Source: an uncultured Opitutia bacterium (lineage in GTDB: Bacteria; Verrucomicrobiota; Verrucomicrobiia; Opitutales; Opitutaceae). From it: a stretch of DNA of 48,097 bases. The notes under the pieces are model-generated. The model made no database searches, had not been told where the DNA came from, and worked only from the letters and a program-made list of their open reading frames with translations. The position numbers and the translations under genes were made by a program. Below are positions 7,303 through 22,841 of the stretch, piece after piece. Positions within the stretch are counted from its first letter, which is position 1. Every line of letters begins with the position of its first letter. Location of the stretch: NCBI GenBank assembly GCA_903820035.1, contig CAIJFT010000216.1:1-48097 (forward strand), read 5' to 3'.

Positions 7303-7353
7303 CCCCCCCGGGTGGCCCTGCGTTCACGCGCCGGGCGACCCGACCCGGTCACC

Positions 7354-8901
7354 TCAACGTAGCGCGCGGTCGAGGAGGTTTTTCATGATGCGCTGCACGC
7401 GGTCGTCGGGGCCGTGCGGCCGGCTCCAGTGCGACCAGGGCAACACGTGGCCGGGGGGGGTCGCCATCGCCTGCGCCCACCAAATGGTGGCGGCGTTGAA
7501 AACGAAATTACCCTTCGGCCCCGGGTAGAGCGTCGCGGCCCATTGCTGCGGCGCTACCCCGCCAACCCACGCCTTGCCCGAGGCGACGACGTCGAGCCCC
7601 GGGATCTCCGTCGCCGGCTGGCCATGGTATTCCCAGCCGATCAGGCCCGGAATGCTTTCGCCCGCCTTCATGCCGGTGCCGGCGAACAGCCAATGGTCCG
7701 GCTTCTGGCAGGTCCAGTCGCCGCCGCCGTTTACCGGCTCGACGTTGCGCGCCCCCATCAGCAACCCCTCGTCGGGACCGTGGTGCGGGAACGGCCCGTT
7801 TTTCTTTTCGCGGTTGACCGCGTACTCCTGCTCGGCGCCGTACGGTCCGCCCCGGAAGATGATCCGGTTCGGCCGGCCGTCGCTGCTCTCCCGATACGGC
7901 GTGACCCAGCAAACGGAATTGCCCGAGAGGAACAACACGTTCACCCCCGCGTCGCGCAGCCGCTCCACGCTGCGGAACTGCGCGAGGTTCCAGTACTCGT
8001 CGTGACCGACGCTGAGGAAGGTTTTGCACTTCAACCCGCGGTCGGGCGTGAGGAGGTCGCTGTTCGAACAGTAGCTGACGTCGTAGCCATGCTGCTCAAG
8101 CCAGTAGGCCAGCGGAAACTCGTAGCAGAGCCACTCGCCGGAGCCGACGGTCAGCGGGTCGTTGACCACGCCGCTCCACTGCGCCTCGCGGCCGTAGGGC
8201 CGGTCGAAACTCACGTCGGCCCACGGCCCCTGGTTCCCCTTGGGGTGGGTGTAGATCGAGTAGTTGTTCGGCCAGCGGTTGTAGGCCTGCCAGGTGTTGT
8301 CGCTGCACTGAAACAGGATGTCGGCCGGCCGCTCGTCGCGCACGATGAACACCACGTAGCTCTGCCAGTAGGGCTCGTCGGCCGTCTCCGGAATCGTCGT
8401 CATCCGGCCGAGATACACGCCGCTCACCCAGTCGGCGGGAATCTGCAGCGTGGTCGTCGGCGTCCAACGGCACTCGTGGAGATTTTTTTCGCCGGGCTTG
8501 GGCGTGGGCTGCGTCGTCGCCGCGAGCGGACCAAACTCCGCCATTTTGCGCGCGCCGCGCCCGCCGTAGTAACCGGTGCGGAACACCTCGAGGCGGAACG
8601 CCCGCGCCGGCTGCGCCGACACCATGATATCGATCGACTCGCCGGCGCGCACACTCTGCCGCGAGCAATAGCCCTCGATCCACGGTGAACGGAAACCGTC
8701 CTTGTCGACGCGCACGCGGGTGAGTTGCCAGTCGCGGCTGCCCTCGCGGGCGTTTTCAGCCGCAATCACGTTCGCCCGTGTGCCGGGCGCCGCCGCGTGG
8801 GCGCCACCGGTCGTCGCCCCGACGAGCGCCGCTGCCGCCCCCGCTTGGAGAAATTCACGACGCGTCAGGGCGGAAACCGGATCGGGTTGGGGCATGCGCA
8901 C
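7354..8901 (-). CDS. Tat-exported DMFase large-subunit-like protein, copy A
   Basis: A 515-residue protein with a Tat signal (TRREFLQAGAAAALVG, residues 13-28). The rest matches the conserved domain named after the N,N-dimethylformamidase beta subunit: GYCSRQSVRAGE, VFRTGYYGG, WVSGVYLGR, then RPADILFQCSDNTWQAYN, then YWLEQHGYDVSYCSN, SVGHDEYW and FNAATIWW near the end. It is homologous along its whole length to the protein at 17574-19076. Characterised DMFase hydrolyses formamides with a mononuclear iron, but these short, single-gene, Tat-exported homologues have no known substrate, so an amidase role is only a guess. It probably acts folded in the periplasm. It lies behind the cyclophilin gene on the minus strand, separated by that gene's terminator. 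Confidence 0.85.
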   Translation of the reverse strand: MRMPQPDPVSALTRREFLQAGAAAALVGATTGGAHAAAPGTRANVIAAENAREGSRDWQLTRVRVDKDGFRSPWIEGYCSRQSVRAGESIDIMVSAQPARAFRLEVFRTGYYGGRGARKMAEFGPLAATTQPTPKPGEKNLHECRWTPTTTLQIPADWVSGVYLGRMTTIPETADEPYWQSYVVFIVRDERPADILFQCSDNTWQAYNRWPNNYSIYTHPKGNQGPWADVSFDRPYGREAQWSGVVNDPLTVGSGEWLCYEFPLAYWLEQHGYDVSYCSNSDLLTPDRGLKCKTFLSVGHDEYWNLAQFRSVERLRDAGVNVLFLSGNSVCWVTPYRESSDGRPNRIIFRGGPYGAEQEYAVNREKKNGPFPHHGPDEGLLMGARNVEPVNGGGDWTCQKPDHWLFAGTGMKAGESIPGLIGWEYHGQPATEIPGLDVVASGKAWVGGVAPQQWAATLYPGPKGNFVFNAATIWWAQAMATPPGHVLPWSHWSRPHGPDDRVQRIMKNLLDRALR

Positions 8902-8948
8902 GACGCTGGTGCAGCGTCAGGCGCGGATCAATGCCGGGCATTCGAACC

Positions 8949-8974
8949 GGTGGGCCCCGATGTCCTCATCGGGG
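8949..8974 (+). repeat. REP-like hairpin, left unit
   Basis: CCCCGATG (8955-8962) pairs with CATCGGGG (8967-8974). Together with the flank GGTGGG this unit is almost repeated in opposite orientation by the terminator at 9003-9030, so the two form an inverted pair in the gap between 8901 and 9040. Confidence 0.5.
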
Positions 8975-8993
8975 CGGTGCGTGGGAATATCCG

Positions 8994-9022
8994 ATTGAAA
9001 AAGCCCGATGGAGACATCGGGC
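8994..9022 (-). terminator. Rho-independent terminator of the cyclophilin gene
   Basis: Read on the minus strand, GCCCGATG (9022-9015) pairs with CATCGGGC (9010-9003) around a four-base loop. It is followed at once by a T run (9002-8998). It begins 18 bases after the cyclophilin stop codon. Confidence 0.75.
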
Positions 9023-9039
9023 CCCACCCCTTGGCGGGA

Positions 9040-9696
9040 TTATTTCTTCAGCCGGATCTTCCGGATGACGGGCGGCGTCACGGGCTTGCTCATGCCGCCG
9101 TCGCCGCCGCGCTGCGTGGGCAATTCGGCGAGGATGTCGACCACTTCCAGGCCGGACGTCACGCGCCCGAAAATCGTGTAGTTGGGCGGCATCGGGTAGT
9201 CCTTGTGCAGAATGAAAAACTGGCTGCCGTTGGTGTTCGGCCCGGAGTTCGCCATGGCCACCACGCCGCGTTTGTAGCCGAGTCCGCGCTGATAGAGCGC
9301 ACTGTCGCGCGTGATCTCGTCGTTGAACTTGCCGCCCCACGCGCTCTCTCCGCCGCGACCGTCGCCCTGCGGATCGCCGCCCTGAATCATGAAGCCCTTC
9401 ACAATGCGGTGGAACGTCAGGCCGTCGTAGTAGCCGCGCTCGGCCAGCAACCGGAAGTTCTCCACGGTCTTGGGCGCGGCGGCCGGCAACAGTTCGAGCT
9501 CGATCACACCCTTGTCGGTCTCGAGCACGGCGAACACGGGCGGCGGCGGCTGATTCCCCGCCGAAACCGCCGGCTTGTCCCCGGCGGCATCAGGTCGGCC
9601 GCAACCGGAAAAGAGCCCGAGGGCCACGACCCAGATACCGACCAGCCCAGACGAACGCGGCACATCGGCAGGAAGGAGGCTTGAAAGCGGCAACAT
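9040..9696 (-). CDS. Lipoprotein cyclophilin-type peptidyl-prolyl isomerase
   Basis: A 218-residue cyclophilin. The N-terminus has a lipobox (ALGLFSGCG), so it should be a lipid-anchored envelope protein with a short Pro-rich linker before the domain. The core motifs are present: FHRIVKGFMIQGGDPQGDG (catalytic Arg in FHR, substrate-binding QGGD), GVVAMANSGPNTNGSQFFI and a shortened C-terminal strand FGRVTSGLEVVD. It catalyses cis-trans isomerisation of X-Pro bonds and would help folding of exported proteins. It is transcribed away from the TonB-receptor promoter region and ends in its own terminator. Confidence 0.93.
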   Translation of the reverse strand: MLPLSSLLPADVPRSSGLVGIWVVALGLFSGCGRPDAAGDKPAVSAGNQPPPPVFAVLETDKGVIELELLPAAAPKTVENFRLLAERGYYDGLTFHRIVKGFMIQGGDPQGDGRGGESAWGGKFNDEITRDSALYQRGLGYKRGVVAMANSGPNTNGSQFFILHKDYPMPPNYTIFGRVTSGLEVVDILAELPTQRGGDGGMSKPVTPPVIRKIRLKK

Positions 9697-9866
9697 CCCT
9701 TCACTTCTCCGCGGCGCCCCCGGCGAGTCAAGGGTCGGTCGGCCCGCGCCGGACCCGCGGGTCCGCAGGCAAAGCTCGTGTCAGCGGCCATTGCCAACCA
9801 AGTTCCCCGATTGGTGCGACCCGGGGTTACATTCCGAGTCCCGCCGACGTCATTCGCCTGGTTCAA

Positions 9867-9884
9867 CCGTACACCCCTGTACGG
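9867..9884. promoter_or_regulatory. Inverted repeat upstream of the TonB receptor, candidate operator
   Basis: CCGTACA (9867-9873) and TGTACGG (9878-9884) are perfect complements around CCCC. The site ends 33 bases before the receptor start, in the 220-base gap between divergent genes. It resembles a dimer binding site for a LacI/GntR-type regulator. The GTACA/TGTAC half-sites recall AraR operators, and an AraR-architecture regulator is encoded at 5194. It could instead act as an RNA hairpin in the 5' leader. Confidence 0.45.
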
Positions 9885-9916
9885 CGCTCACTCCTCTGCG
9901 CCGTGATCTTTTCCCC

Positions 9917-12900
9917 ATGATTCCTATCCTTATCTGCCTGCGCTCTCGGCCCCACGCTCGCCTGCTCGCCGCGCTCGGACTGTGCTCCGCCGGCCTCTTC
10001 GGCCAGATCGCCCCGACCCCGCGCCCCGCCACGGTCGGACCCGCCAATGCCACCGGCGAAACCCTCGTCCTCTCACCGTTCGAAGTGCGTTCCGAGGATC
10101 GCGGCTACTACGCGTCGAATACGATGTCGGGCACGCGGCTCAACTCGAAGATCGAGGACCTCGCTTCGTCCATCACCGTGATCACGAAGGAGCAGATGAG
10201 CGACTTCGCCATGCTCGATCTCAACGACGTATTTCTCTACGAGGCCGGCACGGAAGGCACGGGCACATTCACCGACTATTCCTTCGATCGCAACGGCGCG
10301 CCGGTCGACAACACCCAACTCGACCCCGCTAACGCCAACCGCATCCGCGGCGTCGGCCCGGCCAACTTGTCGTTCGGCAACTATGAGACCAGCGGCCGCG
10401 TGCCGATGGACCCGCTGAGCATCGACTCCGTCGAGATCAGCCGCGGCCCCAATGCCAACGTCTTCGGCCTCGGCGGCGCCGCCGGCACCGTGAACCTCCA
10501 GCCCGCCACCGCCAATCTCCGCCGCAACCGCTCGCAGCTCACCGCGCGCACCGACAGCTTCGCCGGCTACCGGACCACGCTGGACCTGAACCGCGTCCTG
10601 CAGCCGGGCGTCCTCGCGGTCCGCGGCAGCTTCGTCTACCAGCACGACGGCTTCAGCCGCAAACCCGCGGGCACCGATACGCGCCGGTTCAACGGCATGG
10701 TCAAGTACCAGCCGTTCAAGTACACGACGATCAACGCCTCCTATTCCTTCTACCGCCTCGAAGGCAACCGGCCCAACACCACCACGCCGCGGGACGCCAT
10801 CAGCGGCTGGAAGAACGCCGGCTCGCCGACCTGGAATCCGCTGACCTCCCGCGTCACAGTCAACGGCGTCACGAGCGCCAACACGTTCGCCATCGCCTCG
10901 CTCCCGACCGGCCTCGCCAACGCCGCCGGCACCGGCCGCACCAACTCCACCGTGTTCGTCGACGGCAACGGCGCCATCGGCTTCTGGGGCCCGACGCAGG
11001 CCACGGCCACGACGAGCCCCTCCGACCGCAACCAGGCCGTCTTCCTCGTCAACACCGCCCCCGAGGACGTCCGCACCGGTCAGCCGCTGTTCTCCAACAA
11101 CCCGAACGTCAGCAGCCGCGACATCTACGACTGGTCTTCCATCAACCTCGCCGCCGTCAACCGCCTCAAGGACAGCGCGCGCACCACGCGCCTCGAGCTG
11201 GATCAGATCTTTTTGCATACCCCGCAGCAAACGCTGGCCCTCCAGGCCGGCTTCTTCCGCGAGGATACGCAGCGTTTCCGGCGCGATCTCATCGGCACCG
11301 CCGACAGCCAGGGCTCGGCGGGCAACCTCTTCATCGACGCCAACGAACGCCTGCCCGACGGCTCGGTGAATCCGTTCCTCGGCCGCCCCTACATCGGCGT
11401 CTGGCGCCCGTCGTCCTACGACCAGCCGCTGCTGCGCAGCACGTACCGCGTCCAACTCGCCTACCAACTCGACCTCCGCCGCGAGAAATCCCCGTGGCAC
11501 TGGCTCGGCCTGCAGCAGGCCTCCGCCTACGGCGAATACAAGGACGCGGTCCAGCGCCGCATCTCCTACCGCGATGCGATCATCTCCGACCACGCGTGGC
11601 TCGCGCCGGGCGTCGCGCGCGCCGACCCGTCGACCGTCGTCACGATCAACTATTTCCGGTACTACGTCGGCGACGCCAACGGCCAGAACGTCGACTACGG
11701 CTCCGCGCCGTTCAGCCCCGGCCAGTACCCGTACCGTTGGGGCAACGCCCTGACCAACGCCATCCGCACCGAGAACGCGAGTCTTGGCCAGGCCGTCGCC
11801 ACCGACGCCACCGCCGCCGGCGGCAACACCCACCGCATCCTCAAGACGCGCGGCGCCGTGCTGCAGAGCTTTCTGTTCAACGACCGGCTCGTTACGACCG
11901 TCGGTCTGCGCCACGACCAAAGCTACAACACCGTCGGCGTAAACCCCGTCCTCCAGCCCGACGGCATCCACGTCGTACCCGCCTCGCTTTACCAGTGGGC
12001 CGCCCGCGACTGGGCGTTCAACGAGGGCAACACCAAGACCGCCGGCGCCGTGCTCAAGGCCCTCCCTTGGCTCCATCTCCACGCCAACGCCTCCGACAGC
12101 TTCCAGCCGAATTCCTATGCCGTGGACCTGCGCCTCAAACCGCTGCCCGATCCGTCGGGCAAGGGTCACGACTACGGCTTCACGCTGAAACTGCTCGACG
12201 GTAAACTCGTCACCCGCATCAACCGCTACGAGACCAAGCAGCTCAACGCCCGCAACGGCCAGAGCGCGACCATCGCGACGCGCGTGCGCGGCCTCGACTT
12301 CGACACCCCGAACCGCGCGCAGACGCCGTTCAATCTCGTGCCGCTTGCCACCACCTGGGTGACCAACGCCGCCAAGGCCCGCGGCCAGACGCTGACCGCC
12401 GACCAGATCGACACCCAGGTCGCAGCCATCACCGGCCTCGACCGGAAATTCCTGCCCACGCTGACGGACGACCTTGGTGAGACCGAGGACATCGTCGCCA
12501 AGGGCACGGAGGTGGAGTTGAATTACAACCCGACGAACGCCTGGACCATCAAGCTGAACGTCACCGAACAGAAATCGATCAACTCGAACATCTCGCCGGG
12601 CATGGTCTCCTGGATCGCGGAACGCATGCCGGTCTGGACGAAGATCGTTGATCCCGAATTGAACCGGCCCTGGTTCACCGAGCGCTACGGCAACCTTAAT
12701 TCCGCCTCGCAGCTCCTCGCCGCCAACGTCACCGCCCCGCTGAACACCGCGCTCGCGTCGCAGGGCAAGAGCCGCCCGCAGGTCCGGAAATACCGCGTGA
12801 ACCTCAGCTCCAGCTACCGCCTCGCCGGTCTGACCGACCACGCGATCTTGAAGAAATTCACCATGGGCGGCGCACTGCGCTGGGAGGACCGGGGAGCGAT

Positions 12901-13177
12901 CGGCTATTACGGCCTGCAACAGCTGCCCGCGATCATCACCGACCTCGATCCGAACCGGCCGATTTGGGACCAGGCCCACCTCTACGCCGACGCGTTCGTA
13001 TCGTACCGCACCCGATGGTTCTCAGATAAGGTTGCGACCACCTTGCAACTGAACGTGCGCAATCTCCAGGAGGCTGGCCACCTCCAGCCGATCAGCGCTT
13101 ACCCGAACGGGCGGGCGAGCGGGTTCCGGATCGTCGATCCGCGGCAATTCATCGTCAGCGCGACCTTCGACCTGTGA
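9917..13177 (+). CDS. TonB-dependent outer-membrane receptor
   Basis: A 1086-residue receptor. The signal peptide (HARLLAALGLCSAGLFGQ) is followed by the LSPFEV segment common in verrucomicrobial receptors. A plug domain follows, with STVT-like SSITVITKEQMSDF at about residue 90 and ISRGPNANVFGLGGAAGTVNL at about residues 175-195. A long beta-barrel region runs to a C-terminal Phe-x-Leu strand (FIVSATFDL). It should import an oligosaccharide or other large ligand using TonB energy. There is no carboxypeptidase-like SusC N-terminal domain and no SusD neighbour. The ATG at 9917 is chosen because it starts the signal peptide, although the frame is open upstream to 9575. It heads a plus-strand operon with the pectate lyase 55 bases downstream. 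Confidence 0.93.
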   Translation: MIPILICLRSRPHARLLAALGLCSAGLFGQIAPTPRPATVGPANATGETLVLSPFEVRSEDRGYYASNTMSGTRLNSKIEDLASSITVITKEQMSDFAMLDLNDVFLYEAGTEGTGTFTDYSFDRNGAPVDNTQLDPANANRIRGVGPANLSFGNYETSGRVPMDPLSIDSVEISRGPNANVFGLGGAAGTVNLQPATANLRRNRSQLTARTDSFAGYRTTLDLNRVLQPGVLAVRGSFVYQHDGFSRKPAGTDTRRFNGMVKYQPFKYTTINASYSFYRLEGNRPNTTTPRDAISGWKNAGSPTWNPLTSRVTVNGVTSANTFAIASLPTGLANAAGTGRTNSTVFVDGNGAIGFWGPTQATATTSPSDRNQAVFLVNTAPEDVRTGQPLFSNNPNVSSRDIYDWSSINLAAVNRLKDSARTTRLELDQIFLHTPQQTLALQAGFFREDTQRFRRDLIGTADSQGSAGNLFIDANERLPDGSVNPFLGRPYIGVWRPSSYDQPLLRSTYRVQLAYQLDLRREKSPWHWLGLQQASAYGEYKDAVQRRISYRDAIISDHAWLAPGVARADPSTVVTINYFRYYVGDANGQNVDYGSAPFSPGQYPYRWGNALTNAIRTENASLGQAVATDATAAGGNTHRILKTRGAVLQSFLFNDRLVTTVGLRHDQSYNTVGVNPVLQPDGIHVVPASLYQWAARDWAFNEGNTKTAGAVLKALPWLHLHANASDSFQPNSYAVDLRLKPLPDPSGKGHDYGFTLKLLDGKLVTRINRYETKQLNARNGQSATIATRVRGLDFDTPNRAQTPFNLVPLATTWVTNAAKARGQTLTADQIDTQVAAITGLDRKFLPTLTDDLGETEDIVAKGTEVELNYNPTNAWTIKLNVTEQKSINSNISPGMVSWIAERMPVWTKIVDPELNRPWFTERYGNLNSASQLLAANVTAPLNTALASQGKSRPQVRKYRVNLSSSYRLAGLTDHAILKKFTMGGALRWEDRGAIGYYGLQQLPAIITDLDPNRPIWDQAHLYADAFVSYRTRWFSDKVATTLQLNVRNLQEAGHLQPISAYPNGRASGFRIVDPRQFIVSATFDL

Positions 13178-13232
13178 CCGCGCCCCGCGTCGCCCCCGAC
13201 CTCGACCACCCGCCCACCCGCCCCACCTGTTC

Positions 13233-14525
13233 ATGAAGTACCTGCTCTGCCTCGCCCTGCTCGGTCTCACCCTGCGGGCGGAAACCGCTCCGTTGGAACG
13301 CGCCTTCCCCGGCGCCGAGGGCTGGGCGGCCTTCTCCGCCGGCGGCCGTGGCGGCAAGATCCTTCGCGTCACCACGCTGGAGGCCCAGGGGCCGGGCTCA
13401 TTCCGCGCCGCGCTTGAGACCAAGGGCCCGCGCACCATCGTGTTCGAGGTCGGCGGCATCATCGACCTCGCCGGCGAGGTGCTCACGATCAAGGAGTCGT
13501 TCCTCACCATCGCGGGCCAGACCGCACCGGCCCCGGGCATCACGTTTATCCGCGGCGGATTTTTGATCGGCGCCAACGACATCGTTATCCGCCATATCCG
13601 GATCCGCACCGGCGAGGCCGGTCACGCCAAGAAGAGCGGTTGGGAACCCGACGGCATGTCGACGCTGCAGCATGCGCAAAACATCATCGTCGACCATTGT
13701 TCGCTGGCCTGGGCCATCGACGAGAACCTGAGCGTATCGAGCAAGCCGTTCGAGGGCGCCACCCCCGACGAGTGGCGAAAAAACGCCTCCCACCGCGTGA
13801 CCTTCAGCCACAACATCATCGCCGAGGGCCTCGACAAGGCCACGCACAGCAAGGTCGCGCACTCCAAGGGCAGCCTGATCATGGATAACTGCACCGAGAT
13901 CCTGGTGCTGGGAAATCTCTACGCCAACAACGTGGAACGGAATCCGCAGATCAAAGGCGGCTCGTACACGGCGAACGTGAACAACTTCATCTACAACCCC
14001 GTCGTCACCGCCATCCACTATCACCTCAACGACCGCATGTGGCAGGGCCGTCCACCCGAGGTCGGCAAGGCCGAAGTCGTCGGCAACGTCATGCGCCACG
14101 GCCCGAACTCAATGCCGGAGTTGGCGCTCTTCCGCTTCGTGGGCAACGGCGACCTCGAACTGCACACCGCGGACAACCTGGCCTTCAACCGCGCCGGCCA
14201 ACCCATCGCGACCGTCTACGAGGACAACCGCTACGGCGGAAAAATCCGGCCGAAAACCGAGCCGGTGTACTGGCCGCCCGGGCTGCGCGCCCGGCCCGCC
14301 ACCGAGGTGCAGGAGGCCGTCTTGAAAAACGCCGGCGCCCGCGCGTGGGACCGCGACCGCGTCGACCAGCGCATCGTGCAGGACGTCCGCGCCGGCACCG
14401 GCCGTATCATCGATGGCGAACAGGAGGTCGGCGGATATCCGACGGCCACCCCCACCCGGCAGCCGTTTAATCCGGCGGAGTGGAACCTGCGCACGATGGA
14501 GCGAAAGGACGCTCCGAACCCATGA
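13233..14525 (+). CDS. Exported PL1-like pectate lyase family protein
   Basis: A 430-residue protein with a short signal peptide (MKYLLCLALLGLTLRAET). It opens with the family hallmark FPGAEGWAAFSAGGRGG and then GSFRAAL. It continues as a right-handed beta-helix with the turns ILTI-AGQTAP, FIRGGFLIG, DIVIRHIRIRTG and IIVDHCSLAWAIDE. The strand IIVDHCS corresponds to the DHCS metal-binding segment of PL1 lyases. Pectate lyases cleave polygalacturonate by Ca-dependent beta-elimination. Many verrucomicrobial and planctomycetal homologues of this group are annotated only as pectate lyase, and the actual polymer may differ. The stop TGA overlaps the next gene's ATG (ATGA at 14522-14525). Confidence 0.85.
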   Translation: MKYLLCLALLGLTLRAETAPLERAFPGAEGWAAFSAGGRGGKILRVTTLEAQGPGSFRAALETKGPRTIVFEVGGIIDLAGEVLTIKESFLTIAGQTAPAPGITFIRGGFLIGANDIVIRHIRIRTGEAGHAKKSGWEPDGMSTLQHAQNIIVDHCSLAWAIDENLSVSSKPFEGATPDEWRKNASHRVTFSHNIIAEGLDKATHSKVAHSKGSLIMDNCTEILVLGNLYANNVERNPQIKGGSYTANVNNFIYNPVVTAIHYHLNDRMWQGRPPEVGKAEVVGNVMRHGPNSMPELALFRFVGNGDLELHTADNLAFNRAGQPIATVYEDNRYGGKIRPKTEPVYWPPGLRARPATEVQEAVLKNAGARAWDRDRVDQRIVQDVRAGTGRIIDGEQEVGGYPTATPTRQPFNPAEWNLRTMERKDAPNP

Positions 14526-17467
14526 GCGCGGCGCGCTCCAAACTCCGATCCGCTCCGAAGCCCCGCTCCCTCATGCCTGCTCCACGTCTCACGCTGCTGC
14601 TCGGCCTCACCGCTGCCCTCCACGGCGCCGCCCCGTTCGCGCCTGCCCCGAAGGCCGACTTGCCGGAGGGCTACGAACTCATCGTCGCCGCCGCGCCCCC
14701 CCTGCTGAAGCATCCCACCATGGGCTGCCTCGACGACCGCGGCCGGCTCTTCATCGGCGACTCCGCCGGCGTGAACTGGCGCCCGCCGCAATTGGAGAAG
14801 GAACTGCCGCACCGGGTGCTCATGCTCGAGGACACCGACGGCGACCAGGTTTTCGACAAGGTCACCGTGTTCGCCGACAAGATGACGTTTCCGCAGGGCG
14901 CCGCGTGGTACGCCGGCTCCCTGTACGTCGCTTCGCCTCCCGGCATTTGGAAACTCACCGACACCGACGGCGACGGCGTTGCCGACCAACGCGAGATGAT
15001 CGTCGGCGGCTTCGAGTACGACGGCAATGCGGCCGACGTACACGGGCCGTTCCTGCATCCGACCAACGGCCGGCTCTACTGGTGCCACGGCCGCAAGGGG
15101 CACAAGGTCGTGCAAAAGGACGGCACCCTCGTCCACGAGGGCAAAGCCTCCGGTATCTGGTCCTGCAAGCCCGACGGCGGAGACGTGCAGTGGCACGCGC
15201 TCGGGTGCATGGATAATCCCGTCGAAGTCGATTTCACCGCGGACGGCGATCTCGTCGGCGTGGTTAACCTCTATTACAACCAACCCCGCGGCGACACGTT
15301 CATGCACTGGCAATACGGCGGCGCCTACGAGCGGCCGGATTTGCTCGCCGTGATTTCGGCGCTCCCGCGCACCCTCGACCGCATGCCCGTGGTCTACAAC
15401 TACGGCCACGTCGCGGTGTCGGGCTTCACCCTTTACCGCTCCGGGCAATTCAACCCGGCGTGGCGCGGCGATGCGTTTGTCACCTACTTCAACACCCAGA
15501 AGGTCGTCCGCACCAAGCTCACGCCCAGCGGGGCCACGTTCACGGCGACGAACCACGAATTCCTCAAGATCCACGATCCCAACGCGCACCTCACCGACGT
15601 CCTCGAGGACGCCGACGGCTCGTTGCTCGTCCTCGATACCGGCGGCTGGTTCCGCATCGGCTGCCCCGCGAGCCTCGTCGAGCGGCCCGACCTGCGCGGT
15701 GCGATCTACCGCGTCCGCAAAAAAGACGCGCCCCGGCCGGCCGATCCGTATGGTCGGACCATCGCGTGGGACCGGCAAACCCCCGCCCAGCTCGCGCAAC
15801 TCGCCACGGACGACCGCTGGATGGTGCGAAAAAAAGCCACCGCCCTCCAAGTGGTGCCACGCCGCGACCCCGCCGCCACCGCGGAGATCCTCCGCGCCTC
15901 GGCCAATCCGCACGCCACCCGCCGCGCCCTTGAGGCCATCGCCGCGGACAAGCGCATCACCCCGCCCGAACGCGCCGCCCTCCTGGCCCTGTTCAGCGCC
16001 CCGCTCGATCCCGCCTTGGAACACGCCGCGCTGTTCGCCGCGCTGACCACGCGTTGCTTCGACCTGGAAACACTGCGCACGTCCGCCAACCCGGCGGCCA
16101 TCCGCCGGCTGCTGCGCGTGCTGGAGCAAACGTTGGCCGACGTCACGGCGCAGGACGCCCTGCTTGAAATTGCCCGCCGCCACGTCGAGGCGAAGGACGC
16201 GACGCTCGCCGCCGCCGCCGCCGCCACCGTGGCGCGCCATCCGCGCGCCCTCGCGTTGGCCGGCGAGGAGTTCAACGCCCGCCTGTCCGCCCCTCAAGTC
16301 GCCCCGAGCACCCTCGCGATGCTCACCGAAGTCGTCGGCGCCAACTTCACCCAACCCGCCGCGCGCGCCCTCCTCGGCCGGATGCTCGCCCACCCCGAGT
16401 CGGTCGTCCGCCTCACCGCCTGGCGCCTCCTCGCCCGCCAACCCGCCGGCCAGGCGGACCCCGCCTGGCTCGCCGCGCTCGGCCGCAGCCTGACCGTCGC
16501 TACCGGCGCCGAGTTGCCCCTGCTGCTGGAAGCCATCGCCCGGCTGCAGAGCCGGGACTTCGATCCGGCCCTGCTCGCACTCGTGGCCAACGCCAAGCAA
16601 CCCGCCCCAATCCGGTTGAAAGCCCTCGCCGCCGCACTGCAACCGGGCAAGCCGCCCGGCGCGGAGGCGTTTGCCCTGCTGCTGGATATCTCGCGCAGCG
16701 AAGCGTCACCCGCCGCCCGCGTGGACGCCGCCCGCCTGCTCTCGGTTTCCAATCTGACGGACGACCAGTTCCGCGCCCTCGCGCCGGTGCTGGCGACAAC
16801 CGGTCCGGTCGAACTGGCCGAGTTGCTCAAGCTCGCGCGGCGCAAATCCGATCCTGCCCTCGGCCGGATCTGGGCGGAAAGCCTCGCCCGCTCGCCGGTG
16901 TTCGGCGCGATCGAGGAGAGCGCGGTCCGCAGCGCCTTCAGCGGCTACCCGGCCGAGTTGTATGAGCAGGTGTTGATGCCCGCCACGCGGGCCGCGGCCG
17001 AGGCGAACGACGCCAAGAAACGTCGGCTCGAAACCCTCACCCTCGCCGCCGCCGGAGGCCGGGCCGCCGCCGGCCGGCAGGTCTACGCCACGAGCGCATG
17101 CGTCGCCTGCCACAAGGCCGGGGACCTCGGCCGCGCCCTCGGGCCCGACCTGAGCCACATCGGCCAAATCCGCAGCCCGCGGGATCTGCTGGAGTCGATC
17201 CTGTTGCCGAATGCCACCATCGCCCGCGACTACGAGACGCACGTCATCGAAACCACCGGCGGCGAACGCCTGCTCGGCATGATCCGCGGCGACTCGGCCA
17301 CGGAGCTCGTCCTGGTCGATCCGGCCGGCGAGGAGAAACACATCCCCCACGCCCAAATCGTCGCCACCAGCCAGTCGCCCGCGAGCCTGATGCCGGCCGG
17401 CCTTGAACAGACCTTCTCAGAACAACAACTCCTCGACCTCGTCGCCTGGCTCGGGTCGCTCCGCTAA
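14522..17467 (+). CDS. PVC-type dehydrogenase/HEAT/heme-binding CxxCH fusion protein
   Basis: A protein of up to 981 residues. After a signal peptide (LTLLLGLTAALHGAAPF) comes the PVC membrane-bound dehydrogenase propeller (PEGYELIVAAAPPLLKHP, MGCLDDRGRLFIGDSAG, MLEDTDGDQVFDKVTVF, HVAVSGFTLYRSGQF). Next is a long alpha-helical HEAT-like middle rich in Ala and Arg. A C-terminal cytochrome-c-like domain carries C860-V-A-C863-H864 and LGPDLSHIG, then RDYETHVIETTGGERLLG. The family belongs to Planctomycetes and Verrucomicrobia and is thought to oxidise sugars or alcohols in the periplasm and pass electrons to the bound heme. The start at 14522 gives an ATGA overlap with the lyase stop and implies translational coupling. 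The ATG at 14573, just before the hydrophobic core, is an equally possible start. Confidence 0.88.
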   Translation: MSAARSKLRSAPKPRSLMPAPRLTLLLGLTAALHGAAPFAPAPKADLPEGYELIVAAAPPLLKHPTMGCLDDRGRLFIGDSAGVNWRPPQLEKELPHRVLMLEDTDGDQVFDKVTVFADKMTFPQGAAWYAGSLYVASPPGIWKLTDTDGDGVADQREMIVGGFEYDGNAADVHGPFLHPTNGRLYWCHGRKGHKVVQKDGTLVHEGKASGIWSCKPDGGDVQWHALGCMDNPVEVDFTADGDLVGVVNLYYNQPRGDTFMHWQYGGAYERPDLLAVISALPRTLDRMPVVYNYGHVAVSGFTLYRSGQFNPAWRGDAFVTYFNTQKVVRTKLTPSGATFTATNHEFLKIHDPNAHLTDVLEDADGSLLVLDTGGWFRIGCPASLVERPDLRGAIYRVRKKDAPRPADPYGRTIAWDRQTPAQLAQLATDDRWMVRKKATALQVVPRRDPAATAEILRASANPHATRRALEAIAADKRITPPERAALLALFSAPLDPALEHAALFAALTTRCFDLETLRTSANPAAIRRLLRVLEQTLADVTAQDALLEIARRHVEAKDATLAAAAAATVARHPRALALAGEEFNARLSAPQVAPSTLAMLTEVVGANFTQPAARALLGRMLAHPESVVRLTAWRLLARQPAGQADPAWLAALGRSLTVATGAELPLLLEAIARLQSRDFDPALLALVANAKQPAPIRLKALAAALQPGKPPGAEAFALLLDISRSEASPAARVDAARLLSVSNLTDDQFRALAPVLATTGPVELAELLKLARRKSDPALGRIWAESLARSPVFGAIEESAVRSAFSGYPAELYEQVLMPATRAAAEANDAKKRRLETLTLAAAGGRAAAGRQVYATSACVACHKAGDLGRALGPDLSHIGQIRSPRDLLESILLPNATIARDYETHVIETTGGERLLGMIRGDSATELVLVDPAGEEKHIPHAQIVATSQSPASLMPAGLEQTFSEQQLLDLVAWLGSLR

Positions 17468-17573
17468 TCCCGAAGCTGCCCTGCCACGCGAACCGGGGCT
17501 CGGCCGACGCCGGCCGGCCTAATCAACTGACGGGACGCTTTCGCCCGCCGTTTCGACGGACTCCACCCCTCCC

Positions 17574-19076
17574 ATGACCAAGCTACCCGCTTTCTCCCGC
17601 CGCTCCCTGCTCAAGACCGGACTTGCCGCGGCCCTCGCCCCCCTCGCGGCGCGCGCCGCCACCGCGGGCGGACGCCCCAGCTCCGTCATCGTCGACGAAA
17701 ACCGGCGACCGGGCACAACCGATTGGCAGCTCACCTTCGTCCGCACCCAGAATTACCGCTCGGAGATGATCGAGGGCTACTGCTCGCACACGAGCGTGCG
17801 GGCGGGGGAAAAGCTCGGGGTCTTCCTGAGCGCGAACCCCGGCACCGACGTCACGATCGACGTGTATCGGATCGGTTACTACGGCGGTAAAGGCGGCCGG
17901 CACGTCACGACGCTGGGACCCTTTGCCGTCGCGCCGCAGCCGACCCCGCCGGTCGGCGAACACCGGCTCCGCGAATGCCAGTGGGACCGCACCACGGAAA
18001 TCACGATCCCCCGCGACTGGGTCAGCGGCGTCTATCTCGGCAAGCTCTCCTGCCGCGGTCACCGCTACCAAAGTTACATCATCTGGGTGGTGCGCGACGA
18101 CCGGCCGGCCGACCTGCTTTTCCAAACGAGCGACACCACCTGGCAGGCCTACAACAAGTGGCCCGAGGCCCACTCGCTCTACGACACCGACGAGCCGAAG
18201 CGCCCGTGGAACGCGACCACCTGGATCAGCTACGACCGACCCTATGGTTTTTATCCACAGGTCGTGAGCCAGCCGCTCTCGCAGGGCTCGGGCGAATTCC
18301 TCCTCTGGGAATATCCCCTCTGCTTTTGGCTCGAGCAGCACGGCTACGACGTCAGCTACATCTCCAACATCGACACGCATGCCGACGGCCCGGGCCTCGC
18401 CCGCGCGAAGGGTTTTCTGTCCGTCGCCCACGATGAGTACTGGAGTCTCGAAATGTATGAAAACGTCCGCGCCGCGATCCAGCGCGGCCTCAGCGTCGCG
18501 TTTCTCTGCGGCAACAGCGTGTCGGGGGTCGTCCCGCTCAACCTGAAAAACTCCGCGGGCCGCCCGCACCGCCTGCTCTACCGGCGGGGTATGTTTGGTG
18601 GCACCACCAGCGCCCACGTCACCGAAAAGTGGGAGGAACACGGCCCCGACGAATCATTGCTCGTCGGCGCCCGCACGATGTCGCCGGCGAACGGCTCGGG
18701 AAATTGGATCGTGACGCAAGCCGACCATTGGATCTTCGCCGGCACCGGCATGAAGAACGGCGATCTGATTCCGGGCCTGGTCGGCTGGGAACACCATGGT
18801 GAGCCGGGCAAGGTCCCGGGCCTCGCGGTCATCGCCGCCGGACCAACGCTGAAAGCGGGCGGCGAAGCGTCGTCATTTGCCGCGACCGTTTATCCCGGGC
18901 CCAAAGGCAACTGGGTCTTCAACGCCGCAACGATCTTCTGGTCGATGGGCTTGGCCCAACCGCCCGGGCTGGTTCCGCCCTACTCACACCTCGGCCGCCC
19001 GCACGGCGTCGACGCCCGCGTGCAAAAGATCACCGCCAACTTTCTTACCCAATGCCGCATTCTACCCGCACTATGA
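17574..19076 (+). CDS. Tat-exported DMFase large-subunit-like protein, copy B
   Basis: A 500-residue homologue of the protein at 7354-8901. The Tat signal is SRRSLLKTGLAAALAPLAARA. The conserved blocks occur in the same order: EGYCSHTSVRAGE, VYRIGYYGGKGG, DWVSGVYLGK, RPADLLFQTSDTTWQAYN, FWLEQHGYDVSYISN, SVAHDEYWSLEMY and FNAATIFW. The shared HDEYW and the LEQHGYDVSY blocks are the best candidates for active-site residues. Here the gene sits inside the TonB/pectate-lyase operon, 106 bases after the heme protein, and ends in an ATGA overlap with the DUF1080 gene. This ties it to glycan breakdown and away from formamide use. It may remove an N-formyl or other amide group from a sugar, which is inference only. 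Confidence 0.85.
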   Translation: MTKLPAFSRRSLLKTGLAAALAPLAARAATAGGRPSSVIVDENRRPGTTDWQLTFVRTQNYRSEMIEGYCSHTSVRAGEKLGVFLSANPGTDVTIDVYRIGYYGGKGGRHVTTLGPFAVAPQPTPPVGEHRLRECQWDRTTEITIPRDWVSGVYLGKLSCRGHRYQSYIIWVVRDDRPADLLFQTSDTTWQAYNKWPEAHSLYDTDEPKRPWNATTWISYDRPYGFYPQVVSQPLSQGSGEFLLWEYPLCFWLEQHGYDVSYISNIDTHADGPGLARAKGFLSVAHDEYWSLEMYENVRAAIQRGLSVAFLCGNSVSGVVPLNLKNSAGRPHRLLYRRGMFGGTTSAHVTEKWEEHGPDESLLVGARTMSPANGSGNWIVTQADHWIFAGTGMKNGDLIPGLVGWEHHGEPGKVPGLAVIAAGPTLKAGGEASSFAATVYPGPKGNWVFNAATIFWSMGLAQPPGLVPPYSHLGRPHGVDARVQKITANFLTQCRILPAL

Positions 19077-19948
19077 CTTCCCGCACCCCGGTCGCGCCGG
19101 CGACCCACCCCCGCGGGGCGATCGCCCTCGCGCTTGCTTTCGTGCTGCTCGCCCTCACCCCGGCGGGCCGCGGCGAAACCGCGGCCATCACACCGCGCGC
19201 CCCCCTCTCGCTCTTCAACGGCCAGGACCTCGCCGCGTTCACCACCTGGCTCGCCAGCTCCGGTACCACTGATCCGGACCGGGTCTTCTCTGTCGTCACC
19301 GGCATCGACGGTGCCCCGGCGATCCGTTTCAGCGGCCAACATTACGGCGGCATCCTGACCCGCGAGCGCTACACGAATTATCGGTTCGTGATGGAGTTCC
19401 GCTGGGGACTCCTCACCTGGGAACCACGAAAAAACGCCGCGCGTGATTCAGGGGTGCTGTTCCACTGCCAGGGCGAGCCGGGCAACAACACCCCGGACTT
19501 CCGCGCCCCGTGGCAACGCTCGATCGAGTGCCAGCTGATCGAGGGCGGCACCGGCGACCTCATCATCGTCGGCGGCTACGAACGCGGCCGCCCCGAAATG
19601 CTTTTCCCCACGCTCCAGTCGACCGTCACCCCCAGCACCCGCCGCTGGCATCCCCAGGGGGAACCCGGACAGTTCGGGAAGGGCCGCAACCGCACCGACG
19701 CCGGCTACAAAGATCCCGCCTGGAAGGACGTAACCGGTTTCCGCGGCGCCCATGACGCCGAGAAACCCGTCGGCCAATGGAACCACCTTGAAGTCGTCTG
19801 CGCCGGCCGGAGCCTCGCCTATTTTCTCAACGGCGTACCGGTCAACGCCGCGACGGACGCCTCACTCAGCGAAGGCCGGTTGCTGATTCAATCCGAGGGC
19901 GCGGAGCTGTTCGTGCGGAAGATCGAACTGCACCCGTTGCAAAAGTAG
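19073..19948 (+). CDS. DUF1080 (3-keto-disaccharide hydrolase family) exported protein
   Basis: A 291-residue protein with a signal peptide or membrane anchor (AIALALAFVLLALTPAGRG). The DUF1080 concanavalin-like fold is recognisable by SLFNGQDLAAFTTWL near the start, GILTRERYTNYRFVMEFRWG, RDSGVLFHCQGEPG, SIECQLIEGG, then QWNHLEVVCAGRSLAYFLNGVPVN and the closing RLLIQSEGAELFVRKIEL. Members of this family cleave 3-keto-glycosides. They usually work with an oxidoreductase that makes the 3-keto group, a role the heme-linked dehydrogenase or a Gfo/Idh/MocA enzyme could fill here. The ATG at 19073 overlaps the previous stop (ATGA). A start at 19052 is possible but less economical. Confidence 0.9.
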   Translation: MTSRTPVAPATHPRGAIALALAFVLLALTPAGRGETAAITPRAPLSLFNGQDLAAFTTWLASSGTTDPDRVFSVVTGIDGAPAIRFSGQHYGGILTRERYTNYRFVMEFRWGLLTWEPRKNAARDSGVLFHCQGEPGNNTPDFRAPWQRSIECQLIEGGTGDLIIVGGYERGRPEMLFPTLQSTVTPSTRRWHPQGEPGQFGKGRNRTDAGYKDPAWKDVTGFRGAHDAEKPVGQWNHLEVVCAGRSLAYFLNGVPVNAATDASLSEGRLLIQSEGAELFVRKIELHPLQK

Positions 19949-19987
19949 CGTCGCTGCGCTTCGCCACGGGGCGAAACCGCGGCGTGG
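19945..19987 (+). terminator. GTA-hairpin element and convergent terminator candidate
   Basis: A GTAGC overlaps the stop codon of the DUF1080 gene. TTCGCC (19960-19965) pairs with GGCGAA (19970-19975). Alternatively CCACG (19964-19968) pairs with CGTGG (19983-19987). It separates converging genes and begins like the other GTA-hairpin repeats. No T run is present. Confidence 0.45.
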
Positions 19988-19988
19988 A

Positions 19989-21236
19989 TCACGGCTTGCC
20001 GCCGAGGCTGAAGAGCTGCCCGACCGTGCGGAAATAGATCTTGCCGTTGGCGACCGCGGGCGTCGCCCGCGCGAGCTCACCGAGCTCGTTCGTGGCGAGG
20101 ACCTGGTAGGTATCCGCGGCGGCGATCACCGTCACCTTACCGGTGTCGGCGATGCCGTAGAGCTTGCCGTCGACGCAGACCGGCGAGCTGAACGTGTTGC
20201 CGCCGGCGCGCTCCTGCCACTTTTGCGTGCCGCTGACCGGGTCGATGCACGTCACGATCCCGCCGTCGCTCCAAAGAAAGACGAGGCCGCCGAACGCGAT
20301 CGGCGTCGGCACATAAGGCATGGATTTGCGGATGCTGTATTTGACCTCCGCGCGACCGGTCCCGCCGACGGGGGGCTCCACCGCGATCACATAATTACCG
20401 CCGCCGCCGCTGCCGCACGAGGCATAGGTCAGGCCGGCGGCGACGACCGGAGAGCTGATGCTGCGCATCGTGAGCGCCTTCGGCACCGTGGACCAGACGA
20501 CTTTTCCCGCCACCGGATCCACCCCGGAGATGCCGTCCTCGTTGCTGTTGAAGACCAGCACGGGCGGCCGTCCCGGCTGCTCGAGCACACACGGGACGGA
20601 ATAATCGGCGTTGCCGCCCTGCCGCGGAATCGACCACACGGGTTTGCCGGTCTTGCGCTCGACCGCGACGATCGCGCCCTCGCGGTCCTGGTCGTTCGCC
20701 AAAATCACCAGCTCACCGTACACCATCGGGGAATGGCCGCCGCCGTGCTGGGATTCGAAGCCGCCCAACGCCCTTTCCCACACCGGCTCGCCGCCCTGGG
20801 TCAGCGCGCAGAGGAACATACTCCGACCGTCCTGCCGGGTAAAATACACGCGCTCGGCGTCGAGCGCACAGGTGCCCGACGCAAACGAACTGAACTTGTG
20901 CAGGGCGTACTCGCCGTGCGGGTAGGCTTTCTTCCAGAGCACCCGGCCGTCCTTCTCATCCAGGCAGACCACCACGACGTCGCGGGCCTCCGCCACCTGC
21001 AAAAAAATCCTATTACCCCACAGGACGGGCGAGGAGTGTCCGCCCCCCGGCAACGCGACCTTCCAATTGTAGTCGGCGTCGGTCCAGCGGACCGGCACCG
21101 TCTTGGTTGCGCTGATACCGGTGCCATTGGGACCACGGAAGCGTGACCACTCCTGGGCGGAGGCTTCGACCGCAAGGAGCGCCGGGACAAAGGCCAAAGC
21201 AAGCAACCGGGGGAACAAGCCGTGCGGAGTAGTCAC
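19989..21236 (-). CDS. Exported PQQ-like beta-propeller repeat protein
   Basis: A 415-residue protein with a signal peptide (RLLALAFVPALLAVEASAQ). It consists of repeated propeller blades with the pattern of WD-like quinoprotein repeats: WSRFRGPNGTGIS at the start, then HSSPVLWGNRIFLQ, VVVCLDEKDGRVLWKK, AIVAVERKTGKPVWSI and FSSPVCVDGKLYGI. WSRFRGPNG is typical of outer-membrane-biogenesis BamB-like and PQQ-domain proteins of Planctomycetes and Verrucomicrobia. No catalytic Asp pair or disulfide Cys pair of true quinoprotein dehydrogenases is evident, so it may be a scaffold or binding protein. It converges on the DUF1080 gene and is a single gene on its strand. Confidence 0.88.
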   Translation of the reverse strand: MTTPHGLFPRLLALAFVPALLAVEASAQEWSRFRGPNGTGISATKTVPVRWTDADYNWKVALPGGGHSSPVLWGNRIFLQVAEARDVVVVCLDEKDGRVLWKKAYPHGEYALHKFSSFASGTCALDAERVYFTRQDGRSMFLCALTQGGEPVWERALGGFESQHGGGHSPMVYGELVILANDQDREGAIVAVERKTGKPVWSIPRQGGNADYSVPCVLEQPGRPPVLVFNSNEDGISGVDPVAGKVVWSTVPKALTMRSISSPVVAAGLTYASCGSGGGGNYVIAVEPPVGGTGRAEVKYSIRKSMPYVPTPIAFGGLVFLWSDGGIVTCIDPVSGTQKWQERAGGNTFSSPVCVDGKLYGIADTGKVTVIAAADTYQVLATNELGELARATPAVANGKIYFRTVGQLFSLGGKP

Positions 21237-21366
21237 GGCCGGCGAGCTAGGCGGCTTGCCGGCCGGCGGTCAACGGACGAGTGGCGCGGCGAGGCGGGGC
21301 CGCGCGCCGATTTTCACGGGTCTTTGCGGTTCCTCGCCCGGCGATTGTTGTTCATAGTGCGGCCCG

Positions 21367-21807
21367 ATGAAACGCCTGATCCCGCTGCTCCTGCTGGTCG
21401 TCTCCCCGCTGCTCGCCGAGAAAGTCACCCTCAAGCAGAACGCCATCCTGAAGGGTGAGCGCACCCTGATCACGCTCAAGGCCGGCACCGTCGTCGAGGT
21501 CGTGAGCCGCGACCGCTTCGAACTCACCGTCAAATACAACAACGTCACGGGCACGATCCCCGCGGCCAAACTCGAGGAACCGACCGAAGCGGCGAAAGCG
21601 GCTGAGGCCAAGGCCGCGGCCAAGAAGGCCCCGGAGCCCGCCAAGGCGCCGGTCAAGGCCCCCGCAGTCACCCCCCCACCGCCCGCCGAGCCCGCGCCGG
21701 TCGCCGGCGCGCAGACCAATTACGGCAAGGCGGTCCGCCGCGCCAAGGCCAACGCCGCCGCGAACGAGGCCAATCTGGTGAAGCCGGTGGACGAAGTGGC
21801 GAAGTGA
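21367..21807 (+). CDS. Small exported protein with SH3-like segment and Ala/Lys/Pro tail
   Basis: A 146-residue hypothetical protein. The signal peptide is MKRLIPLLLLVVSPLLA. Residues about 18-65 (VTLKQNAILKG, LKAGTVVEVVSRDRFELTVKYNNVTGTIPAAKL) have the alternating pattern of a bacterial SH3-like barrel. Residues 66-115 are a low-complexity Ala/Lys/Pro/Glu linker that could span the periplasm or cell wall. The end (YGKAVRRAKANAAANEANLV) is helical and charged. Its role is unknown, but small SH3-plus-linker proteins are often envelope-associated. It lies alone between a divergent propeller gene and the ThuA gene. Confidence 0.75.
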   Translation: MKRLIPLLLLVVSPLLAEKVTLKQNAILKGERTLITLKAGTVVEVVSRDRFELTVKYNNVTGTIPAAKLEEPTEAAKAAEAKAAAKKAPEPAKAPVKAPAVTPPPPAEPAPVAGAQTNYGKAVRRAKANAAANEANLVKPVDEVAK

Positions 21808-22726: not shown

Positions 22727-22737
22727 ATTGGCCGCCG

Positions 22738-22756
22738 GTAGCGCCGACCGCGGCGC
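22738..22756 (+). repeat. GTA-hairpin intergenic repeat, copy 3
   Basis: GTA is followed directly by GCGCCG (22741-22746), loop ACCG and CGGCGC (22751-22756), a perfect six-pair stem. It begins 11 bases after the ThuA stop codon, like the other GTA-hairpins at gene ends. Confidence 0.5.
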
Positions 22757-22812
22757 AGTTACCTCGCCGCGCCGCTCGACTCGAGCGCCCGGTCGCGCTC
22801 ATCATCGGCCAC

Positions 22813-22836
22813 GCACCGGGACCCCGGTCCCGGTGC
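22813..22836 (+). promoter_or_regulatory. Perfect GC-rich hairpin directly before the heparinase-like start
   Basis: GCACCGGGACC (22813-22823) pairs with GGTCCCGGTGC (22826-22836). It ends five bases before the ATG at 22842, so it occupies the place of a ribosome binding site and could restrict translation initiation. Confidence 0.45.
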
Positions 22837-22841
22837 GGCGT

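Follow-up and report, generated by a model that had tools for sequence, protein, structure and literature searches.

A TonB receptor, PL1-like lyase, heme protein, DMFase-like and DUF1080 gene cluster in an uncultured Opitutia bacterium and its rearranged relatives

The window, a stretch of 48,097 nucleotides from an uncultured Opitutia bacterium of the Opitutaceae, carries five tightly packed plus-strand genes (Table 1). An earlier sequence-only reading had described this arrangement, and the open reading frames (all five present, with correct coordinates), the ATGA overlaps at 14522 and 19073 and the profile scores confirm it. The short gaps measure 55 bp between the receptor and PL1-like genes and 106 bp between the heme and DMFase-like genes. 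Two gene starts have alternatives: an in-frame ATG at 14573 in the heme gene is directly followed by what appears by eye to be a signal-peptide-like stretch, and one at 19052 would give the DUF1080 gene a 25-base overlap in place of the ATGA. Terminator-like sites numbered 16 (10.9 expected), with none between operon genes, and the sole promoter-like site found lies inside the heme gene.

Table 1. Coordinates of the operon genes and the neighboring divergent gene
Feature	Position	Strand	Details
Second DMFase-like gene (P0006), divergent from the operon, just outside it	7354..8895	-	DMFA2_C
TonB-dependent outer-membrane receptor	9917..13177	+	1086 aa; PF07715 Plug
PL1-like polysaccharide lyase (P0002)	13233..14525	+	PF00544 Pectate_lyase_4
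PVC heme protein (P0003)	14522..17467	+	TIGR02604 + TIGR02603
DMFase-like protein (P0004)	17574..19076	+	PF20254 DMFA2_C
DUF1080, 3-keto-disaccharide hydrolase family (P0005)	19073..19948	+	PF06439 3keto-disac_hyd

The receptor scores 28.5 bits against the plug profile (cut-off 23.9). Assignment of its neighbor is marginal, at 25.8 bits for PF00544 against a cut-off of 24, and it is best described as a candidate lyase; its N terminus resembles a signal peptide by eye, its matches among solved structures include 9buj, annotated "Pectate lyase" (E 2.3e-24), and VexL (6fi2, E 2e-7), and against the NCBIfam PelZ equivalog model it reaches 379.6 bits, below the cut-off of 840. A receptor together with a polysaccharide lyase recalls SusCD-type polysaccharide utilization loci, from which the operon differs in that no SusD was found in this genome. 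The absence of SusD had been noted before and is real, but it is uninformative and we reject it as a distinctive feature of the operon, because there are no PF07980 matches anywhere in the draft genome, in a search for which a Bacteroides control was positive.

The heme protein matches TIGR02604 (160.8 bits, cut-off 122.2) and TIGR02603 (109.1 bits, cut-off 68.15). It is made up of a PQQ-dehydrogenase-like β-propeller, a helical-repeat middle part of ∼400 residues and a C-terminal cytochrome c domain with a CxxCH motif, of which C860, C863 and H864 are invariant in 12 of 12 sequences. In the predicted model (m64c6cdad76b8), the propeller has the fold of the soluble glucose dehydrogenase sGDH and AA12 pyranose dehydrogenase, with Z scores of 27–30 (29.8 for 6jt5 and 28.4 for 1qbi, against 22–24 for the other propellers listed). 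AA12 carries a fused heme domain; the helical repeats and the C-terminal, PVC-type cytochrome c set the protein apart from both enzymes. A further difference concerns the cofactor site. The residues contacting PQQ in sGDH, which we take to be His144, Arg228-Asn229, Arg406 and Arg408, have counterpart motifs in Escherichia coli YliI, but appear to be replaced here. In an alignment at low sequence identity (hhalign E 0.017), all 27 rows of the heme clade described below show Asp-Asn for the Arg-Asn pair and Thr or Ala for the last Arg; at the position of the first Arg, 24 rows have His and 3 have Arg. The propeller alone, run as a profile against the PDB, retrieved no PQQ enzyme by sequence; a search of the genome for PqqC gave no match, but is uninformative since the control was also silent. 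The fold therefore fits a PQQ sugar dehydrogenase, but the apparent loss of PQQ-contacting side chains weakens that assignment, and the earlier label of "heme-linked dehydrogenase" goes beyond the evidence.

P0004 is a confident member of the DMFA2_C family (281.5 bits, cut-off 27), which is rare in this genome (three matches in 6.05 Mb); proteins of its type were seen in contigs of Planctomycetota, Verrucomicrobiota and Bacteroidota. Its predicted model (pLDDT 84.7) resembles the large subunit of DMFase (6lvb) and N-acetyl-(R)-β-phenylalanine acylase (8huy) at Z ∼30, with values for 6lvb_A of Z 29.9 and rmsd 3.1 over 394 aligned residues. DMFase residues Y399, E521, H519 and N547 correspond to Y193, E288, H286 and N314, all invariant in 19 of 19 sequences, such that one iron-binding Tyr, the iron-binding Glu, the essential catalytic His and the active-site Asn are retained. 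Y440 of DMFase falls in an unaligned stretch, for which Y203 and Y224, both invariant, are candidates. Unlike the two characterized enzymes, P0004 has 500 residues rather than ∼770 and an export-like stretch at the N terminus. The P0004 profile aligns to 6lvd/6lvb at 5–40 and then from 334 onwards, and pentraxin domain II, which spans 74–337 in DMFase, is absent by this alignment; no gene for the small subunit, which DMFase needs for its activity, was seen among the operon genes. The N-terminal stretch contains twin arginines by eye, and a comparison with NCBIfam, including Tat model TIGR01409, gave no match at E ≤ 1. The fold and the four conserved positions support the proposal, already made in the sequence-only reading, of an amide-removing step, and make P0004 a candidate Fe(III) amidohydrolase.

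A second DMFase-like gene, P0006, had been overlooked. Its product passes the Tat model narrowly (16.8 bits against 16.7) and is 66–69% identical to copies that directly precede the DMFase-like gene in three Bacteroidota loci (L011, L023 and L024); a 53-residue fragment in L016 also matches it. Closer relatives in L063 (72%) and L080 (71%) are without partner genes, which counts against a special tie of P0006 to the operon.

P0005 scores 83.5 bits against PF06439 (cut-off 26.8) and has a signal-peptide-like N terminus. The genome contains 29 DUF1080 matches, of which only one paralogue, 53% identical, exceeds 30 bits against P0005. Relatives at 35–75% identity occur in 14 of 80 loci, 13 of them within 5.5 kb, with L008 in addition. 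The Gfo/Idh/MocA family serves in 3-keto pathways; a Pfam scan of 13 window genes (801–21236) showed neither a member of it nor another evident C3 sugar dehydrogenase, the nearest Gfo/Idh/MocA gene seen in the window being at 32162–34282.

One other Verrucomicrobiota contig, L005, has the complete gene order together with an additional gene. There the ATGA at the PL1–heme junction is conserved, 2 bp separate the heme and DMFase-like genes and the DUF1080 gene starts with a 25-base overlap; open reading frames in the relatives' loci were called heuristically and gene starts there are approximate. Receptor relatives near PL1 and DMFase-like genes are 81% identical in L001, 82% in L005 (partial, at a contig end), 72% in L031 and 53% in L006; another, in L139, is 76% identical. 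Of the seven closest loci, six have PL1 near the DMFase-like gene, four have a related receptor within 10 kb of it, two have DUF1080 and one has the heme subfamily near it; the other six show no heme subfamily within 10 kb. In L002, the DMFase-like gene adjoins a heme gene from a different subfamily. In 13 of 15 Bacteroidota loci, a member of the P0003 heme subfamily lies no more than 5 kb from the DMFase-like gene, and none of the 15 has PL1 within 10 kb. L007, which contains an incomplete heme-subfamily piece below the score limit, was counted as a miss. The two genes adjoin directly in Hydrogenedentota locus L046, are paired in another Opitutaceae locus, and in L012 stand directly downstream of FecR, SusC-like and SusD genes. 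Within 5 kb in the remaining 58 of 80 loci, the heme subfamily is present in two, DUF1080 in two and PL1 in none.

The presence nearby of heme and DUF1080 genes in itself means little, because both families are large in this genome (55 matched stretches for the heme family). The rarity of DMFA2_C in this genome, and the occurrence of one specific heme subfamily beside DMFase-like genes in other phyla, speak for more than chance. In a tree of 52 rows (domains of at least 230 residues, duplicates removed), the window protein falls inside one clade of 27 rows with support of 100/100, and the heme subfamily adjoining DMFase-like genes is of common descent. Of 18 rows from its own genome, 16 fall elsewhere and the two within the clade overlap, having been cut from a single locus; the tree excludes 13 of 43 own-genome heme matches, those without a locus, and carries a long-branch warning for the own-genome rows. 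In L137, L145 and L147, clade copies stand in stretches where no DMFase-like gene was seen. A survey of 150 family genomes, in which up to five candidates were scored per genome, found a match to P0003 at E ≤ 1e-100 in six; G031 and G091, taken as the hosts of L001 and L004, were not among them, and the heme protein therefore seems dispensable to the receptor/PL1/DMFase-like core.

For none of the four partners did DMF-type and DMF2-type loci differ significantly (Fisher test, p 0.27–0.56, with L011, L023 and L024, Bacteroidota loci of both types, labeled as DMF2). With these three set aside, neither the heme subfamily nor the DUF1080 type occurs within 10 kb in any of 18 DMF2-only loci, but partners are also missing from many of the remaining DMF-type loci. 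Poisson figures ignore relatedness, seven Sphingobacteriaceae loci amounting to one arrangement, and we relied instead on distinct arrangements. The Daejeonella cluster L010 resembles two loci of the Opitutia genome combined, namely the operon (C216) and C55, which encodes a ceramidase-like protein, a TonB receptor, a Gfo/Idh/MocA protein, a second ceramidase-like protein (without a Pfam match, 31% identity), a DUF1080 protein and a second-type heme protein (52% identical). Gfo/Idh/MocA genes also accompany L042, L046 and L139, as they do L010. The relatives also carry nitrogen–carbon hydrolases: L042 has a PIG-L de-N-acetylase and a nitrilase, L010 a ceramidase-like gene, and L001, L002, L005 and L139 have CehA/McbA genes. 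An invariant five-gene operon is rejected by the variation of partners among the 80 loci. Recurrence of the order, complete in L005 and partial across three phyla, thus supports the linkage proposed earlier, for which non-recurrence would have been the contrary outcome, but a single fixed five-step pathway is not supported: the unit is modular and has been repeatedly rearranged.

The genes, their families, predicted folds, recurrence and the common descent of the linked heme subfamily are observed; which reactions take place, in what order, in which compartment and on what substrate is our inference. Our main reading, to which we give a probability of roughly 0.45, is a periplasmic 3-keto-type module that breaks down a glycan or glycoside, acidic and probably carrying N-acyl or amide groups. 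The TonB receptor would import oligosaccharides and the PL1-like lyase would then cut the chain by elimination; the β-propeller/cytochrome c protein may take electrons from a sugar hydroxyl or relay those that another oxidase supplies; once exported, the DMFase-like protein, with Fe(III) on Tyr/Tyr/Glu, would hydrolyze an amide (N-acyl or carboxamide) on the sugar; and the DUF1080 enzyme would cleave the 3-keto-glycoside. A more ambitious version is unlikely to hold in all its parts jointly: a new class of oxidative periplasmic glycan breakdown common to Verrucomicrobiota, Bacteroidota and Hydrogenedentota, in which the β-propeller cytochrome, no longer using PQQ as known enzymes do, would oxidize a sugar, while removal of the N-acyl or carboxamide group by an exported Fe(III)-tyrosinate amidohydrolase would unlock cleavage by the 3-keto-glycoside hydrolase.

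The operon might instead join two functions, a receptor–PL1–DMFase-like polysaccharide module and a heme–DUF1080 pair acting on other 3-keto-glycosides. The stretches covered of L001, L006 and L031, with receptor, PL1 and DMFase-like genes but neither heme subfamily nor DUF1080, and those of L137 and L145, with the latter two together but no DMFase-like gene, would be expected on this account, as would the size of both families in the genome. We nevertheless regard it as somewhat unlikely, since the pairing of DMFase-like and heme genes in the PL1-free Bacteroidota loci, and their adjacency in L046, argue for a tie between the two that does not depend on PL1.

Nor need the DMFase-like protein be an amidase. 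Domain III of DMFase is arranged like ThuA (PMC7686228), and the ThuA-like chain 1t0b aligns with the P0004 model at Z 11.3. A ThuA-type action on 3-keto sugars or their derivatives, with a glutamine-amidotransferase-like fold, would have a precedent in that ThuA takes part in rhizobial 3-keto-trehalose use; the far higher Z scores to DMFase and the acylase, and the invariance of the four active-site positions, make it distinctly improbable. We consider it very unlikely that the substrate is a small amide or ester molecule, such as a glycolipid or glycosylated natural product, and that the PL1-like protein has lost its lyase function. The borderline PL1 score and the ceramidase-like and CehA/McbA genes adjoining the relatives are in keeping with such a role, but they are set against the persistence of PL1-like and receptor genes in the closest loci and the kinship of the former to a pectate lyase structure and VexL.

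DUF1080 beside an oxidizing enzyme is an established 3-keto arrangement, exemplified in PMC9007349 by Caulobacter LacABC with CCNA_01705 and by BT2157, and the earlier suggestion of an oxidation step coupled to DUF1080 fits pathways as described there. As in those pathways, a DUF1080 protein with a signal-peptide-like N terminus stands beside a candidate redox protein; unlike LacABC, the redox gene here encodes a β-propeller/helical-repeat/cytochrome c protein, and the PL1-like and DMFase-like proteins of the locus are further differences. The recurring set described here ties one DMFA2_C and one PVC heme subfamily to DUF1080 and, in Opitutaceae, also to a PL1-like lyase. Work published in Nature in 2024 reportedly deals with 3-keto glycan breakdown, and a literature search of titles and abstract openings found no description of the gene set. 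To our knowledge, no physiological substrate is known for DMFA2_C proteins of the P0004 type or for PVC heme proteins. The set makes a small, testable enzyme panel and could give a natural role to relatives of an Fe(III)-tyrosinate amidohydrolase described from dimethylformamide breakdown. Its recurrence points to a breakdown of sugar polymers or glycosides in which oxidation may be combined with amide cleavage.

The five plus-strand genes of the operon, encoding a TonB receptor, a PL1-like lyase, a PVC heme protein, a DMFase-like protein and a DUF1080 protein, are present in the sequence with the coordinates, strand and two ATGA junctions ascribed to them by the sequence-only reading. Family scans upheld all five labels, that of PL1 only just (25.8 versus 24 bits). 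A consensus scan of 7200-21400 detected neither a promoter-like site upstream of the operon nor terminator-like sites between its genes. Elsewhere in the window, two esterases, of the beta-lactamase and BD-FAE types, precede a regulator that is followed by an aldo/keto reductase, and the Heparinase II/III-like protein is possibly a further polysaccharide lyase.

Features of the window and of related loci
Feature	Location	Positions	Strand	Remark
Regulator, GntR helix-turn-helix and LacI-type sugar-binding domain	window	5194-6324	plus	
Second DMFase-like gene	window	7354-8895	minus	beyond isomerase, divergent from operon
Cyclophilin-type isomerase	window	9040-9696	minus	borders operon
Five-gene operon	window	9917-19948	plus	
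BamB/PQQ-repeat protein	window	19989-21236	minus	borders operon
Heparinase II/III-like protein	window	22728-25049	plus	PF07940, 35.8 bits, cut-off 24
PF01011 quinoprotein dehydrogenase family match	window	28720-30564	minus	600 bits
CehA/McbA family metallohydrolase	L005	971-3292		265.9 bits, cut-off 80
CehA/McbA family metallohydrolase	L001			278 bits, cut-off 80
CehA/McbA family metallohydrolase	L139			280.7 bits, cut-off 80
CehA/McbA family metallohydrolase	L002			by alignment
Ceramidase-like, TonB receptor, Gfo/Idh/MocA, second ceramidase-like, DUF1080, second heme type, DeoR regulator	L182 (own-genome contig C55)	203-12536		

Searched with the DMFase-like protein, the species-genome collection gave 225 confirmed stretches, and the best 80 of these were all examined. 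Within them the gene order recurs on a single contig, L005, with one extra gene (receptor, CehA/McbA hydrolase, PL1, heme protein, DMFase-like, DUF1080); the ATGA at the PL1-heme junction is kept there, and 2 bp separate the heme and DMFase-like genes. Elsewhere only parts of the order are found. Among the same best 80 of 225, the seven loci whose DMFase-like proteins are closest (67-81%; L001-L006 and L031) have PL1 within 5 kb in six cases, a related receptor within 10 kb in four, CehA/McbA in three, DUF1080 in two and the heme subfamily in one. The 15 Bacteroidota loci contain no PL1; 13 of them have the heme subfamily within 5 kb, and 10 have the DUF1080 type within 10 kb. At the other 58 loci, the heme subfamily (within 5 kb) and the DUF1080 type occur twice each and PL1 never, and neither of the first two lies within 10 kb at any of 18 loci carrying only the second DMFase type.

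Other combinations include the DMFase-like, heme and Gfo/Idh/MocA-like genes of a Hydrogenedentota locus (L046) and an Opitutaceae series of heme, DUF1080, Gfo/Idh/MocA, PIG-L, nitrilase, DMFase-like, phosphatase, LamG, second DUF1080 and nucleoside-type symporter (L042). In genome G043 (L139), receptor, PL1 and type 2 DMFase-like genes diverge from CehA/McbA, heme, symporter and Gfo/Idh/MocA genes. The CehA/McbA genes of the four tabulated loci are upstream of PL1 or divergent, and the window's genome has no close relative (best 37.8 bits). Across 150 family genomes, the DMFase-like protein has matches at E<=1e-100 in 16 and the heme protein in six, the two together in three genomes besides the window's. 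The window's second DMFase-like gene has 79-80% identical counterparts in two same-genus genomes, with no operon partner among those searched for in the stretches examined (L143 and L144). A gene 59% identical to it occurs in L076, titled a Klebsiella pneumoniae MAG and perhaps a mislabelled bin.

A single five-gene pathway had been proposed. The genes do not form a fixed five-gene unit, and the pathway stands as a proposal. The description of the locus as lacking SusD is correct but says nothing about the operon, because SusD was not found anywhere in the draft genome (6.05 Mb, with three DMFA2_C matches, 55 TIGR02604 matched stretches and 29 DUF1080 matches).

A maximum-likelihood tree was built from 52 propeller domains, 18 of them from the window's own genome. 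It places the operon's heme protein in a 27-row clade (100/100) with linked copies from Bacteroidota, Hydrogenedentota and Verrucomicrobiota, together with some unlinked copies. Sixteen of the 18 own-genome rows lie outside this clade; the two inside overlap and both come from one locus (C5). Seven Sphingobacteriaceae clusters carry a second heme type, whose sister in the tree is the heme gene of C55. The DUF1080 gene of C55 is the one close paralogue that the operon's DUF1080 gene has in the window's genome. The C55 locus is a counterpart to half of the Daejeonella cluster L010 (ceramidase-like genes, sulfatase, heme type 2, DMFase-like, heme, DUF1080, double DUF1080, Gfo/Idh/MocA, symporter), which, given this gene content and the sister heme type, joins much of what the window's genome splits between two loci.

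In the heme protein model (pLDDT 77.7, low across much of the cytochrome part), the propeller most resembles AA12 and sGDH (Z 27-30). The sequence of the cytochrome domain has a match in the diheme protein 7zs0 (E 7e-17). Pocket positions are conserved in the heme clade but unlike those of PQQ enzymes: in a low-identity alignment, Arg-Asn of E. coli YliI becomes Asp-Asn throughout, and Arg-x-Arg-Asp-Val mostly His-x-Thr-Asp-Val. The PF01011 match suggests that the organism may use PQQ; PqqC had no match in the genome, nor did any control give one.

The AlphaFold model of the DMFase-like protein (pLDDT 84.7) resembles DMFase and N-acetyl-(R)-beta-phenylalanine acylase at Z of about 30, the next folds reaching at most 15. 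By profile alignment, DMFase Y399, E521, H519 and N547 correspond to Y193, E288, H286 and N314, invariant in 19/19 sequences, and no equivalent of Y440 was placed. The DMFase mutants Y440A, E521A and H519A are described as having no activity (PMC7686228). Unlike DMFase, the protein has no pentraxin domain. Export is likely from a twin-arginine stretch seen by eye, which the Tat model does not match; the neighboring DMFase-like product matches barely (16.8 versus 16.7 bits). We infer an exported iron amidohydrolase whose substrate is not DMF.

DUF1080 adjoining a periplasmic sugar oxidase is a known arrangement, as described in PMC9007349. Relatives of the operon lie beside extra nitrogen-carbon hydrolases (PIG-L, nitrilase, ceramidase-like and CehA/McbA), a fitting set of candidate enzymes for an N-acylated or amidated substrate. 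The lyase VexL, to which the PL1-like protein is related, has an N-acetylated uronate polymer as its substrate. Because of these hydrolases and this polymer, we favor, with moderate confidence, an amidated or N-acylated acidic glycan as the substrate. The gene set is real and modular and recurs across phyla; most of its parts are ordinary, and it is their combination that is unusual.
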